In this document: positions 39,087-44,227 of the stretch, in pieces
How the letters are laid out: each line of letters begins with the position of its first letter
Position numbering within the stretch: position 1 is the first letter of the stretch
DNA from: Polyangiaceae bacterium
GTDB lineage: Bacteria > Myxococcota_A > Polyangia > Polyangiales > Polyangiaceae
Direction: 5' to 3'
DNA: 64,000 bases
Assembly (NCBI GenBank): GCA_015075635.1
Contig: JABTUA010000003.1
Coordinates: 744,001-808,000, forward strand
The notes under the pieces: generated by a model
Told to the model about the DNA's origin: nothing
Databases searched by the model: none
What the model saw: the letters and a program-made list of their open reading frames with translations, nothing else
Translations under genes and position numbers: made by a program

Positions 39087-40193
39087 CTAGACCACCGGCA
39101 ACCGCACCGGCTTTGCGCCTTCCTTCTCGCGGAGCTGGCGCCAGTAACAGTGCTGGTTGTCCTTCGACAGCTTGTTCTGCGAGAAGCTGGTCCAGGTGCA
39201 TCCTCCGCGACACACCTCGGCGTAGTCGCAGGTCCGGCAGAAGCCGCCGAGCTGCTCCAGCGAGAACTCGCGGTTGTAGGCGAAGCCGCCCTCGCGAAGC
39301 CAGATGTCCCTGAGCGACGTGCTCCTGACGTTCCCCTCCACGAACACGTCTTCCCCGTTCGCCGCCGAGGGCAGCGAGAGGCAACCCTTGATGTTGCCGT
39401 TGCTCTCGATGCCGATGATCGAGCAGCCCGCAGGGCAGCCGGTCCAGAACGGGATGGAGTCCTTCGGGTCGCGCAGGCGCTCCTCGGGCTCGCCGTAGTA
39501 TCCGACGTCGTGCCCGGGGTAGACGCGCGGCTGCTTGCCGTCGCGGCACATCGCGGCGATGCGCGGCACCAGATCGAGCATGTCTTCCGGCAAGAGCGCC
39601 AGCTCGCGGTGGTCGCCCAGATTCCCGGTCGGCGTGCCGAGCTGGATCTGCCAGCGCTCGACGCCGTGCTCGGCGAGCAGCTCGCGGAGCGCCTCGAGCT
39701 CACCCTTGTTCTTGTCGTAGACGGTGGTCACCGCGCTGACGACGAGCCCGTGCTTCTTCGCGACGGCGAACGCCCCGAGCACCTTGCCGAACAGGCCCTT
39801 CGAGTGACGCAGGTAGTCATGGCTCGCTTCGAAGCCGTCCAGGCTGAAGGCGACGCTCTCGAGACCCACGACCTTCGCGGTGTGCGCGGTCTGGTCGGTC
39901 CACTCGAGCCCGTTCGAGATCATGCCCACCTTGATGCCGTGCTCCACCAGGCGCTGGGCGAGCAAGGGCCAGTCTCGGCGCAGGAGCGGCTCGCCACCAC
40001 CCAGCGTCACGAAGCGGCAGCCGAGCTCGGCGAGCTCGTCGGCGAGCTTCAGCAGCTCGGCGAGCGACAGCTCGTCGGGTCGCGGCTTGCCGGCGCGCGA
40101 GCCGCAGTGCAGGCAGCTCAGGTTGCAGCGGAGCGAGAGCTCCCAAACCGCGACCCTGGGAACGAATCCGTACTTCCTGAGCAGCTTGATCAT
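39087..40193 (-). CDS. Radical SAM/SPASM-domain protein, putative peptide or protein maturase
   Basis: 368 residues from ATG 40193, which has a strong GGAGG 5 bp upstream. The radical SAM cluster motif is CNLSCLHC (Cys23, 27, 30), followed by FVTLGGGEPLLRRDW, which contributes to S-adenosylmethionine binding. The C-terminal SPASM region has eight cysteines (253, 257, 271, 319, 322, 328, 332, 349; for example CPAGC, CRTCDYAEVCRGGC), enough for two auxiliary Fe-S clusters. SPASM enzymes modify peptides or proteins by radical C-C, C-S or C-H chemistry. The divergent neighbour, 170 bp away, has five YG(I/M)P motifs and is the likely substrate. An anaerobic-sulfatase or PQQ-type role lacks contextual support. 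Confidence 0.92.
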   Translation of the reverse strand: MIKLLRKYGFVPRVAVWELSLRCNLSCLHCGSRAGKPRPDELSLAELLKLADELAELGCRFVTLGGGEPLLRRDWPLLAQRLVEHGIKVGMISNGLEWTDQTAHTAKVVGLESVAFSLDGFEASHDYLRHSKGLFGKVLGAFAVAKKHGLVVSAVTTVYDKNKGELEALRELLAEHGVERWQIQLGTPTGNLGDHRELALLPEDMLDLVPRIAAMCRDGKQPRVYPGHDVGYYGEPEERLRDPKDSIPFWTGCPAGCSIIGIESNGNIKGCLSLPSAANGEDVFVEGNVRSTSLRDIWLREGGFAYNREFSLEQLGGFCRTCDYAEVCRGGCTWTSFSQNKLSKDNQHCYWRQLREKEGAKPVRLPVV

Positions 40194-40271
40194 GCTCGCC
40201 TCCGGAACACGACAGACCCGAGCGAACGATACGCCTCGACCCTGGTGTGTCCAGGCGGCGCAGTCCGCGTC

Positions 40272-40290
40272 GTGCGCAAACGCTGCGCAC
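40272..40290. promoter_or_regulatory. Inverted repeat in the divergent promoter region
   Basis: GTGCGCA, five bases (AACGC), TGCGCAC: perfect 7-bp arms, roughly midway between the radical SAM start (40193) and the YGIP-repeat start (40364). A second small dyad (CTCGA, CGAAA, TCGAG; 40343-40357) overlaps the ribosome site of the YGIP gene. Either may serve as an operator for coordinated expression. Confidence 0.35.
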
Positions 40291-40363
40291 TTGCGCGCGC
40301 GACCGGCGCGGCACGCGGCAGCGCGGGTGGTACGCTGAGCATCTCGACGAAATCGAGGTCGTC

Positions 40364-41215
40364 ATGGCGGACAACCCGCACGCGAGACTCGTTCGACAAT
40401 ATCTGGAAGACGCCTGCGCGAGGCTCGACCAGAAGAAGAGGCCGCGCCCTTGGCCGACGTTCGTGCGAGCGGCGCTGGCGGCGCCGTTTGCCGTCGGCGT
40501 GGGTCTCGCCTTCGTGAGCTGCGGAGGAAACAGCGAGAGCGATCCGCTCCAGGAAGTCTGCGACGACAACAAGGACAACGACGCGGACGGCAAGATCGAC
40601 TGCGCCGACTCGGACTGCGCCAGCGCCACGAACTGCATCGGAACCAAGTACGGCATTCCGATGGAGACCATCTGCAACGACAACAAGGACAACGACAGCG
40701 ACGGCAAGATCGACTGCGCCGACTCGGACTGCTCGACGTCGCCGAACTGCGGGGGAGCTCTGTACGGGATCCCCGGCCTCGAGACGAACTGCGAAGACGA
40801 CCAGGACAACGACTTCGACGGGCTGATCGATTGCGCCGACCCGGACTGTGCCATGGCGCCGAACTGCGGCGGCACGGACTACGGCATTCCGATGGAGACG
40901 AACTGCGCCGACACGCTCGACAACGACGGCGACACCCTCGTGGACTGCCTCGACCCCGACTGCGCGACGGCGCCCAATTGCGCCGGTGGCAAATACGGGA
41001 TCCCGACCGAGACCGCCTGCGACGACAAGGTCGACAACGACGGCGACAACCTCGTGGACTGCCTCGATCCCGACTGCAACGGCAGCCCGAACTGCGGCGG
41101 CGCGTTGTACGGCATGCCCTTCGAGGCGGCCTGCAGCGACGGCAAGGACAACGACTTCGACGGGCTGACGGACTGCAAGGATCCGGACTGTTCCCAGGAT
41201 CCGTACTGCAAGTAG
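40364..41215 (+). CDS. Multi-repeat YG(I/M)P protein with acidic Cys modules, putative radical SAM substrate
   Basis: 283 residues from ATG 40364 (GAGG 6 bp upstream). Residues 1-30 are a charged, leader-like helix. About 36-53 are hydrophobic, ending LAFVSCGG: a lipobox-like site or a membrane anchor. From residue 66 there are six units of a DNDxDGxxDCxDxDC module with four cysteines each, resembling the calcium/metal-binding DND repeats common in Myxococcota. They are separated by five YGIP or YGMP motifs, with Tyr at 96, 134, 173, 211 and 249 (spacing 38-39). Identical spacing and conservation of Y-G-I-P outside the metal-type module suggest a selected site. Divergent from the radical SAM/SPASM gene. 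Confidence 0.8.
   Translation: MADNPHARLVRQYLEDACARLDQKKRPRPWPTFVRAALAAPFAVGVGLAFVSCGGNSESDPLQEVCDDNKDNDADGKIDCADSDCASATNCIGTKYGIPMETICNDNKDNDSDGKIDCADSDCSTSPNCGGALYGIPGLETNCEDDQDNDFDGLIDCADPDCAMAPNCGGTDYGIPMETNCADTLDNDGDTLVDCLDPDCATAPNCAGGKYGIPTETACDDKVDNDGDNLVDCLDPDCNGSPNCGGALYGMPFEAACSDGKDNDFDGLTDCKDPDCSQDPYCK
40559..41213 (+). repeat. 114-117-bp degenerate tandem repeat, six units, coding
   Basis: Six units of 38-39 codons (the last truncated) encode the DND/Cys modules and YG(I/M)P linkers of the putative maturase substrate. Units 1 and 2 are most alike, as are 4 and 5. The Cys, Asp and Tyr-Gly-Pro positions are kept while other codons drift, so the repeat is old and under selection. 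Confidence 0.85.
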
Positions 41216-41392: not shown

Positions 41393-42580
41393 ATGCCACT
41401 GCGGGCGCGGCGAGCGGAGGTCGAGCTTCGGCGGCTCGCAAGAAGCTCGCCAGCGGTCCTGGTCCACGGTCCCCGACAGTGCGGCAAGACCACGTTGGTC
41501 CGGAGCGTCCTACCGGACTGGCACCACGTCGACCTGGAGCGACCGCGGGACATCGCGCTCTTGCGAGCCGATCTGGAAGGCTGGCTGGACAATCACTCGG
41601 AGCGGGTCTGCATCGACGAGGCCCAACGCCTGCCGGAGCTGTTCCCTGCCCTGCGGCACGCCATCGACGCCCGGGGCCGCAAGGCTCGTTTCGTGTTGCT
41701 CGGCTCGGCCAGTCCGAGCTTGATGCGCACCGCCGCCGAGTCCTTGGCAGGCCGGCTAGCGCTGCTGGAGCTGACGCCGTTCTTGGCTGCGGAGCTAGCG
41801 GGAAACCGCGCGGGGCGCGGCCGCTGGTTCTGGGGCGGCTTCCCTCCCGTGTGGGCACGCCGCTCGAGCCGCGAGCGCGTCGAGTGGCTCGACGACTACC
41901 TGACGGCGGTGCTCGAGCGAGATCTCCCGGCGCTCGGCATCGGGCTGCCGCCCGCGCGGCTCCGGAAGCTGGTGGAGATGCTCGTGCACGTTCACGGCAA
42001 CCTGCTGAACGTGTCGGATCTGGCCCGCTCGCTCGGCGTCTCCGTGCCCACCGTGAGCCGCGATCTCGACGTGCTCGAGGGGCTGTTCGTCACGCGGCGC
42101 CTGCAGCCCTTCCACGCCAACATCCAGAAGCGCTTGACCAAGTCCCCCAAGATCTACCTGCGCGACACCGGGCTGCTGCACGTCTTGGGGGGGCTCCGAA
42201 CGCCCCCGGAGCTCGAGACCTGGAGCCGACGCGGCGCTTCGTTCGAGGGGCTGGTGATCGAGGAGATCGCGGCCCTCGCCCGGGAGCGCTGCGTTCGGCC
42301 CGGCCTGTTCTTCTGGCGGACCGAGGCGGGCGGCGAGGTGGACCTCCTGATCACGGACGGACGACGCGTCGTCCCGATCGAGATCAAGCTGGGCTCGGCC
42401 ATCGATCACCACGCGCTGCGAGGGCTCCGCCAGTGCTTGGCCGACCTGGGAGTTGCGCGCGGGTACGTGGTAATGGGTAGCGGTGAGCGCACCCGGCTCG
42501 GTCGAGACATCGAGCTCGTCCCCTGGCAGGACGTCGTCGAAAGACGCTTCGACTTCGGGCTCGGGGGGCGCGCTCGATGA
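41393..42580 (+). CDS. AAA_14/DUF4143-family ATP-binding protein
   Basis: 395 residues. Walker A is HGPRQCGKTTLVRS (about residues 25-38), Walker B VCIDEAQRLPEL, and sensor region FVLLGSASPSLMR. The middle part holds a winged-helix-like segment (LLNVSDLARSLGVSVPTVSR). The C-terminus has the DUF4143 nuclease-like signature (FFWRTEAGGEVDLLI, then VPIEIKLG), a PD-(D/E)xK arrangement. Members are usually mobile or accessory genes of unclear function, sometimes linked to toxin-antitoxin-like loci. It is preceded by AT-rich palindromes and followed by an IS110 region, so recent arrival is plausible. Confidence 0.9.
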   Translation: MPLRARRAEVELRRLARSSPAVLVHGPRQCGKTTLVRSVLPDWHHVDLERPRDIALLRADLEGWLDNHSERVCIDEAQRLPELFPALRHAIDARGRKARFVLLGSASPSLMRTAAESLAGRLALLELTPFLAAELAGNRAGRGRWFWGGFPPVWARRSSRERVEWLDDYLTAVLERDLPALGIGLPPARLRKLVEMLVHVHGNLLNVSDLARSLGVSVPTVSRDLDVLEGLFVTRRLQPFHANIQKRLTKSPKIYLRDTGLLHVLGGLRTPPELETWSRRGASFEGLVIEEIAALARERCVRPGLFFWRTEAGGEVDLLITDGRRVVPIEIKLGSAIDHHALRGLRQCLADLGVARGYVVMGSGERTRLGRDIELVPWQDVVERRFDFGLGGRAR

Positions 42581-43171: not shown

Positions 43172-44227
43172 CTACTTCGCGTCTGTCGTGCAGTGCTTGG
43201 CCGGGTCGTACTCCTCCTTTTTCTTCCAGATCGCCAGGGTGGCCGAAGCGATGCGACGTGCAATCGTCAGGCGGGCGAGCGGTGGCTTGGAGTTCTGCAG
43301 CAGCCGGTCGTAGTCGCGGCGCAGCGGGTGATCGGTCTGGGCGATGACGCTGAGCGCCGCGCCTTTGAATATGGCCTTCAGCAGGGGATTGCGGTTGCGG
43401 TTGAGGCCGCGGGTGTGGGCGACCTGACGGCGCACCCAGCGCTGGCTCCGCTCGTCGCGCTCGTAGTCCGACGAGCTGCGCGTGACGATGCCGAGGCCGC
43501 AGTACCCGAAGAAGTCGCGCTTCGTGGAAAAGCGGAACGGCGTGACGACGATCGCGACGATGTACGCTGCGCGCACCGGGCCGATACCTGGCAGCGTCGT
43601 CAGCCGGCGCACCTCCGCATGCTCCCGTGCTTGCTCGAGCAGCCATATCTCCGCCTGTTCGCGGACTTCGCACAGACCGTCGAGCTCGGTCGACAGCAGC
43701 TGAGCCATGCGCGCTCGGGCCGGCGGCAGCTTCGGCAGCCACTGATCTCGGGTATCCGGGTCGTAGATCTCGTTGCCCATGCCGTGGATGCCCCGAGAGC
43801 GATACAGCGCATTGAGCCTGAGCTTCGTGCGGACCACGTCGGCAGTAGTGACCCGATGAGCTCGCACCGCCTCGCGCAGCTGCGTGAAGCGGCCGCGCGC
43901 CTTGAAAACGACGTTCTCGAGGTCGCCCTTGCGGAGCTTCGAGGCGAGATTCCAGGCATCGATGGAGTCGTTCTTCGCTCCGGCATGCTTGTCGGGCTGG
44001 ACCACCACGAGCTCCGCCACGTGCGGCTCCAGGACCTCGCAGAGCCATTCGCTGAGGGTGCCCTCCTCCATGCACAGGCGACGCTGTCCGGGAATGGTGC
44101 GAACGAAGTCGATCAGCACTTTCGCGTTCGTCTCGAGCGTTTGCTCGCGTAACTGACGGCCTGCCGAGCCCATCACCGCGAACGTGCAAGTTTGCGAATG
44201 CGCGTCGAGTCCTATATAGCGATCCAT
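43172..44227 (-). CDS. IS110-family transposase (DEDD recombinase)
   Basis: 351 residues from ATG 44227 with GGAGGA about 8 bp upstream. The N-terminal RuvC-like DEDD domain begins MDRYIGLDAHSQTCTFAVMG (Asp8), with acidic residues in LCMEEGTLSEWL and AKNDSIDAWNLASKL. The C-terminal Tnp20-type domain has LTTLPGIGPVRAAYIVAIV and RFSTKRDFFGYCGLG, which contains the serine position typical of the family. The full length is intact, with no frameshift or stop, so the element may still be active. Confidence 0.95.
   Translation of the reverse strand: MDRYIGLDAHSQTCTFAVMGSAGRQLREQTLETNAKVLIDFVRTIPGQRRLCMEEGTLSEWLCEVLEPHVAELVVVQPDKHAGAKNDSIDAWNLASKLRKGDLENVVFKARGRFTQLREAVRAHRVTTADVVRTKLRLNALYRSRGIHGMGNEIYDPDTRDQWLPKLPPARARMAQLLSTELDGLCEVREQAEIWLLEQAREHAEVRRLTTLPGIGPVRAAYIVAIVVTPFRFSTKRDFFGYCGLGIVTRSSSDYERDERSQRWVRRQVAHTRGLNRNRNPLLKAIFKGAALSVIAQTDHPLRRDYDRLLQNSKPPLARLTIARRIASATLAIWKKKEEYDPAKHCTTDAK

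Follow-up and report, generated by a model that had tools for sequence, protein, structure and literature searches.

Does the radical SAM/SPASM enzyme P0002 modify P0001, the protein with five evenly spaced YG[IM]P motifs that is encoded divergently from it, and if so, by which chemistry? The two genes lie in a stretch of 64,000 nucleotides of Polyangiaceae bacterium DNA (assembly GCA_015075635.1, contig JABTUA010000003.1, positions 744,001 to 808,000), which was analysed as a whole and is here called the window. Judging from sequence comparison, we favour with a probability of roughly 0.6 the reading that P0002 is a splicease-like maturase and P0001 its dedicated substrate, from which tyramine would be excised and which upon export would display ketoamides. 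The first-pass annotation of this DNA had the coordinates, the strands, the 170-bp divergent gap, the intact radical SAM core and the eight SPASM cysteines right, and the features of the locus are as follows (positions in the window):

39087 to 40193, minus strand: radical SAM/SPASM enzyme P0002, 368 aa, splicease-like by homology (family scores, tree)
40104 to 40127, minus strand: radical SAM core motif CNLSCLHC of P0002, Cys23/27/30
39147 to 39437, minus strand: SPASM region of P0002 with eight cysteines (253-349)
40194 to 40363, no strand: divergent intergenic region of 170 bp, the gene order being kept at loci L031, L032 and L062
40364 to 41215, plus strand: P0001, 283 aa, with six acidic double-disulfide modules and five YG[IM]P sites in between
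40364 to 40438, plus strand: leader-like N-terminal helix of P0001, MADNPHARLVRQYLEDACARLDQKK (alignment; weak AlphaFold2 helix, residues 5-23)
40460 to 40522, plus strand: hydrophobic segment of P0001 ending in the lipobox-like FVSC (Cys53; from sequence)
40559 to 41209, plus strand: six NF033662 acidic double-disulfide modules, Cys66 to Cys282
40649 to 40660, plus strand: YGIP site 1, Tyr96
40763 to 40774, plus strand: YGIP site 2, Tyr134
40880 to 40891, plus strand: YGIP site 3, Tyr173
40994 to 41005, plus strand: YGIP site 4, Tyr211
41108 to 41119, plus strand: YGMP site 5, Tyr249

With its CxxxCxxC core and its SPASM cysteine set (residues 253, 257, 271, 319, 322, 328, 332 and 349), P0002 qualifies as a radical SAM/SPASM enzyme, and it matches the Pfam families Radical_SAM (PF04055; 82.7 bits, 4.5e-23) and SPASM (PF13186; 25.2 bits, 2e-5). 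The top NCBIfam model is TIGR03913 with 283.6 bits, below the cut-off of 591.75; TIGR04103, the PlpX-type splicease equivalog, which we take to be the same model as IPR026482, gives 280.9 bits, far under its curated cut-off of 725, and TIGR04133 gives 158.8 bits and does not reach its cut-off of 425. Among plasmid records, enzymes of the GDL, Nif11 and related types share 36-42% identity with P0002 (E<=2e-57), and TIGR04133-type members 28-30% (1e-22 to 1e-26). Ten columns common to the myxobacterial, TIGR04103 and TIGR03913 enzymes (G31, L71, Q184, G231, Y232, G234, G261, E263, K269 and G270) are absent in NirJ, MftC and TIGR04053, and Q184, G261, E263 and K269 are also absent from TIGR04133 members. 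The pair had initially been regarded as a version of the TIGR04133/TIGR04134 system; a relationship of P0002 to TIGR04133 is not supported by the family scores (159 bits versus 425, with 284 and 281 bits on TIGR03913 and TIGR04103), the tree or the four missing columns. A PDB sequence search with P0002 retrieved distant enzymes only (SkfB, cytosylglucuronate decarboxylase), and the AlphaFold2 models of P0002 (mean pLDDT 52, SPASM half below 40) and P0001 (mean pLDDT 40, with a weak N-terminal helix) were too poor for fold searches.

In P0001, the motifs begin at residues 96, 134, 173, 211 and 249, hence recur every 38, 39, 38 and 38 residues in the linkers between the modules, and take up five of the seven tyrosines of the protein. 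Upon 50,000 shuffles of the sequence, at least two YGxP occurred in 36, with a maximum of three. The only NCBIfam model above cut-off is NF033662 (185.9 bits over six stretches, cut-off 41), with neither a Nif11/NHLP leader nor a TIGR04134 match, and no DUF1843 match was found in P0001 or in the neighbouring window genes scanned. The membrane anchor assigned to P0001 earlier is plausible in view of the hydrophobic stretch of about residues 33-53 that ends in FVSC. The other neighbours in the window are a 232-aa protein without Pfam match and, 3' of the P0001 gene, a DUF4143 AAA ATPase (41393-42580) and an IS110-type transposase (43172-44227); none of the three was seen beside the orthologous pairs whose neighbours were read, and they were set aside.

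The acidic modules offer an internal control. A search with P0001 in 379 Myxococcota genomes returned 30 loci, two of which adjoin an enzyme and carry four to five YGxP, while the remaining 28, which hold as many as 19 acidic modules apiece and no enzyme at the locus, lack Y[GAM]xP in the acidic-module frame throughout (0/28). Six further acidic-module proteins encoded in the window's genome are equally devoid of YGxP (0/6), and six weaker radical SAM loci of this genome have no YGxP neighbour. The motif therefore appears in the scaffold where the enzyme is, its presence depends on that of the enzyme, and YGxP as a component of the acidic module is ruled out by these 34 loci and proteins, in agreement with the original observation that the motifs lie outside the module.

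Does this association hold across the phylum? Homologous enzymes (E<=1e-60) were found in 139 of the 379 genomes by whole-genome searches, which were used instead of a single-protein scan of genome contigs that gave two relatives only. The 83 enzymes analysed comprise 80 fetched loci, with genes called by a purpose-built codon-usage model, two enzymes from genome contigs and the window. At least two YGxP are present in 33 of 262 neighbours (no more than two positions and 1.5 kb from the enzyme) versus 1 of 446 distant genes (at least five positions and at least 3 kb away), with p=3.4e-14, a value that is not that of independent trials because the loci are mutually related. When the residue in front of G-x-P is varied, tyrosine alone is strongly enriched near the enzyme, about 10-fold (Phe 0.8, Trp 1.1, Leu 0.5). 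By a strict rule, Y[GAM]xP-type sites are found next door or in the enzyme's own C-terminal extension for 67 of the 83 enzymes (50 with a trans partner, 15 with the extension only, two with both); the same rule applied to other residues gives 14 for Phe, 9 for His, 6 for Trp, 6 for the reversed motif and 41 for Leu, an abundant residue. No motif by the strict rule is present for the remaining 16 enzymes, although at five of these loci (L063, L067, L133, L136 and L137) a less strict YG or YA site can be read. No YGxP partner was seen in the open reading frames around L065 and L066, whose enzymes, from two lower-GC genomes, are 53-54% identical. In the window's genome, all four enzymes of the family possess a Y[GAM]xP-type substrate, namely P0002, L122 and L123 with zinc-ribbon-type partners, and the fused L076. 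The genomic tests by which the first-pass annotation could have been refuted have mostly gone in its favour: homologues consistently adjoin or are fused to YGxP-type proteins. P0002 and P0001 are very probably an enzyme and its substrate, with five sites available in a single protein of envelope type.

In the 15 fused enzymes (L069, L076, L077, L079, L081, L085, L086, L087, L089, L091, L092, L096, L104, L114 and L117), which span six Myxococcota families, at least two Y[GAM] sites are located in a C-terminal tail behind the SPASM domain in the same open reading frame; there are six in L104, seven in L117 and eight in L085. In those tails that were printed, the sites come after a hydrophobic, lipobox-like stretch and the N-terminal leader of the trans partners is missing, as if covalent tethering had replaced docking. 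That YGxP is a mere structural linker, with the enzyme acting on an unrelated molecule, is hardly credible: it could appeal to the fact that the activity of P0002 is predicted from sequence, but would leave unexplained the enrichment among neighbours, these natural fusions and the fact that acidic-module proteins without the enzyme lack the motif.

In the phylogenetic tree, P0002 falls into one group with L062, L031 and L032 (SH-aLRT 99); all four have a divergent acidic-module partner, with YG[IV]P sites some of which have become YAAP or YGVF. Nearby branches (L063, L064 and L067) have acidic-module partners as well, with YAAx or YGAP sites, and in the alignment the leader-like N-terminus of P0001 is common to partners of related enzymes, reading xLLRxYLDxVCAxLD in most partners of the window's subclade and the nearby branches. 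Two other genomes of the window's genus hold no comparably close copy of P0002, the distribution of which is therefore patchy. At L070-L074, where the enzyme shares about 49% identity with P0002, the partners have a repeated PxYMAPD in place of xYGxP. A second large branch holds the TIGR04103 and TIGR03913 references, and its partners mostly consist of a CxxCxRHVRxxExxCPFC leader, a hydrophobic stretch, a cysteine and then one to four xYGxP (for example MALYGLPPADA and PLYGMPADAG). This zinc-ribbon-like leader, called from its cysteine pattern with sub-threshold Pfam support, begins the partners at L101, L105-L109, L113, L120, L122, L123, L127, L128, L130 and L135; elsewhere the enzyme itself carries a comparable ribbon as a fusion, at its C-terminus in Azospirillum and Aureibacter and at its N-terminus in Tropicibacter, as if it were a docking module moving between enzyme and substrate. 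In the partners at L126 (10651-11289), L132 and L140, a lipobox-like cysteine immediately precedes the site (ACYGxP).

As P0001 is rich in cysteine, and the fused tails of L096 and L117 show CCxCxYGxxP contexts, the enzyme might instead modify a cysteine or another residue of the acidic module, for example by a thioether, with YGxP serving merely as recognition tag or linker. We regard this as distinctly improbable, given that many partners (e.g. L101, L106 and L107) have no cysteine near the sites, that acidic modules without enzyme are common, and that no residue of the site varies less than tyrosine.

With respect to the chemistry, PlpX (subclass IPR026482) together with PlpY excises tyramine from Xaa-Tyr-Gly (PMC11002830), and tags derived from PlpA2 read GPIRPLYGLPI, splicing costing about 135 Da (PMC10533398). 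In the case of Nostoc, the C057 enzyme, a true TIGR04103 member (853 bits versus a cut-off of 725), adjoins a Nif11-leader precursor ending in GGRGSIALYGLPPELF, the site of which, ALYGLPPELF, matches both the myxobacterial ALYGLPPADA and RPLYGLPI of the PlpA2 splicease tag; the sites of the myxobacterial and the TIGR04103-type systems are in this respect identical. No PlpY-like gene was recognised beside the window enzyme or orthologous enzymes, and a 71-aa candidate in Nostoc is likewise without Pfam or NCBIfam match, so that a gene of this kind may escape recognition. On the basis of the family scores, the Nostoc/PlpA2 site match and the shared columns, tyramine excision is taken as the likeliest reaction. 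Caution is called for mainly by the YAAP and YMAP variants. XYG is the motif described in the literature, yet YAAP/YMAP sites accompany the sister enzymes L031, L032 and L070-L074, and YA/YM sites occur in TIGR03913 partners, so that the chemistry may be broader or different. Moreover, as stated in the first-pass annotation, TIGR04133-associated lipoproteins carry xYGxP after the lipobox cysteine (CEYGSPHANF, SCYGMPENYY, CEYGTPSADY), so that the reaction cannot be read from the motif alone; the TIGR04133 system may share it. At L148, L149 and L150, lipoproteins of this type have xYGxP either directly at the lipobox cysteine or shortly behind it.

SPASM enzymes catalyse many kinds of radical crosslinking reaction. 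P0002 could accordingly introduce another radical modification of tyrosine at YGxP, for instance a crosslink of the cyclophane or ether kind, or a bond between the tyrosine backbone or beta-carbon and a neighbouring residue, with a loss of 2 Da per site, an option to which the several reactions spanned by the NCBIfam match list of P0002 and the departure of YAAP and YMAP from XYG lend some weight. We nevertheless deem it unlikely, as splicease-type enzymes make up the nearest families for which a relative has been tested, the site coincides with the splicease tag, and the linkers at many myxobacterial sites are rich in Ala, Pro and Asp with no obvious crosslink partner. The cyclophane at -2 Da proposed at first is probably wrong, X-Tyr-Gly-x-Pro matching the splicease tag and not an aromatic-x-x crosslink site; the families on which P0002 scores highest are maturases other than the cyclophane-forming (triceptide) ones.

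For tyramine excision, the sequence of events might be pictured as follows. With the substrate still in the cytoplasm, P0002 would dock on the N-terminal helix of P0001 or on the nascent chain and act at each X-Tyr-Gly-[I/M]-Pro linker before export, excising tyramine at each X-Tyr-Gly and rejoining the chain, at a predicted cost of about 135 Da per site, to leave an alpha-keto-beta-amino residue. Export of P0001 by way of the hydrophobic, lipobox-like segment would follow, and the cell envelope would then display as many as five electrophilic ketoamides between disulfide-locked acidic modules. Since beta-residue products have been reported to possess protease-inhibitory activity (PMC10373908), one may speculate about protease trapping or covalent adhesion as a role at the surface.

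If true, one cell-envelope protein would contain up to five reactive ketone-bearing residues, and each fused form would unite an enzyme and several sites in a single gene. In the literature examined, splicing has so far been demonstrated for co-expressed precursors and engineered tags, and a 2022 review states that spliceotides had yet to be isolated from a natural source and that their role was unknown (PMC8868522). The sites predicted here are found in dedicated, probably exported and sometimes disulfide-rich proteins, with up to eight per protein. The probable export of the substrates and the occurrence of the enzyme in 139 of 379 genomes point to a role at the cell envelope and make Myxococcota a phylum to look in. 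That myxobacteria harbour a large splicease-type family with envelope lipoprotein-like substrates, including disulfide-module proteins with five splice sites, with backbone-spliced ketoamides a general feature of the cell surface and part of the family self-splicing via its own tail, we would put at even odds.

The class of YG-modifying radical SAM maturases, the spliceases, is already known. A paper by Scott et al. of 2022 (Chem 8:2659) reportedly has 'peptides and proteins' in its title. As far as the literature was searched, the acidic disulfide-module, lipoprotein-like substrates, the helix and zinc-ribbon leaders and the 15 natural enzyme-substrate fusions are new, although part of this may be published already; nothing on a P0002-type system was found in the literature on these TIGR models or on such enzyme-precursor fusions.

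Compared with known systems, the PlpX/PlpY splicease (TIGR04103-type; Pleurocapsa, Nostoc) shares with the window locus a radical SAM/SPASM enzyme located by its precursor and X-Y-G-x-P sites, the Nostoc TIGR04103 enzyme being 38% identical to P0002. It differs in that P0002 stays under the TIGR04103 cut-off, that no Nif11/NHLP leader or PlpY-like gene is recognised, and that the substrate, P0001, has 283 aa, disulfide modules, a lipoprotein-like build and five sites and is encoded divergently from the enzyme. The TIGR03913 GDL-motif/DUF1843 maturase (Azospirillum, with a similar Aureibacter locus) is up to 42% identical and its partner peptides carry Y[GAM] sites (RPYGPAM, MYMATV, LYAAGI), but these are DUF1843 peptides of about 55-70 aa, and the enzyme has a C-terminal zinc-ribbon-like segment. 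The TIGR04133/TIGR04134 system (Bacteroidota, Treponema) likewise pairs its enzyme with an adjacent lipoprotein in which xYGxP stands at the lipobox cysteine or a short way behind it, whereas its enzymes are 29-31% identical and lack Q184, G261, E263 and K269. The arrangement of the fused myxobacterial forms has a precedent in borosins, the OphMA-type self-modifying methyltransferases, where a core peptide likewise follows the enzyme that modifies it in one chain; that enzyme is unrelated, and its chemistry, backbone N-methylation, is a different one.
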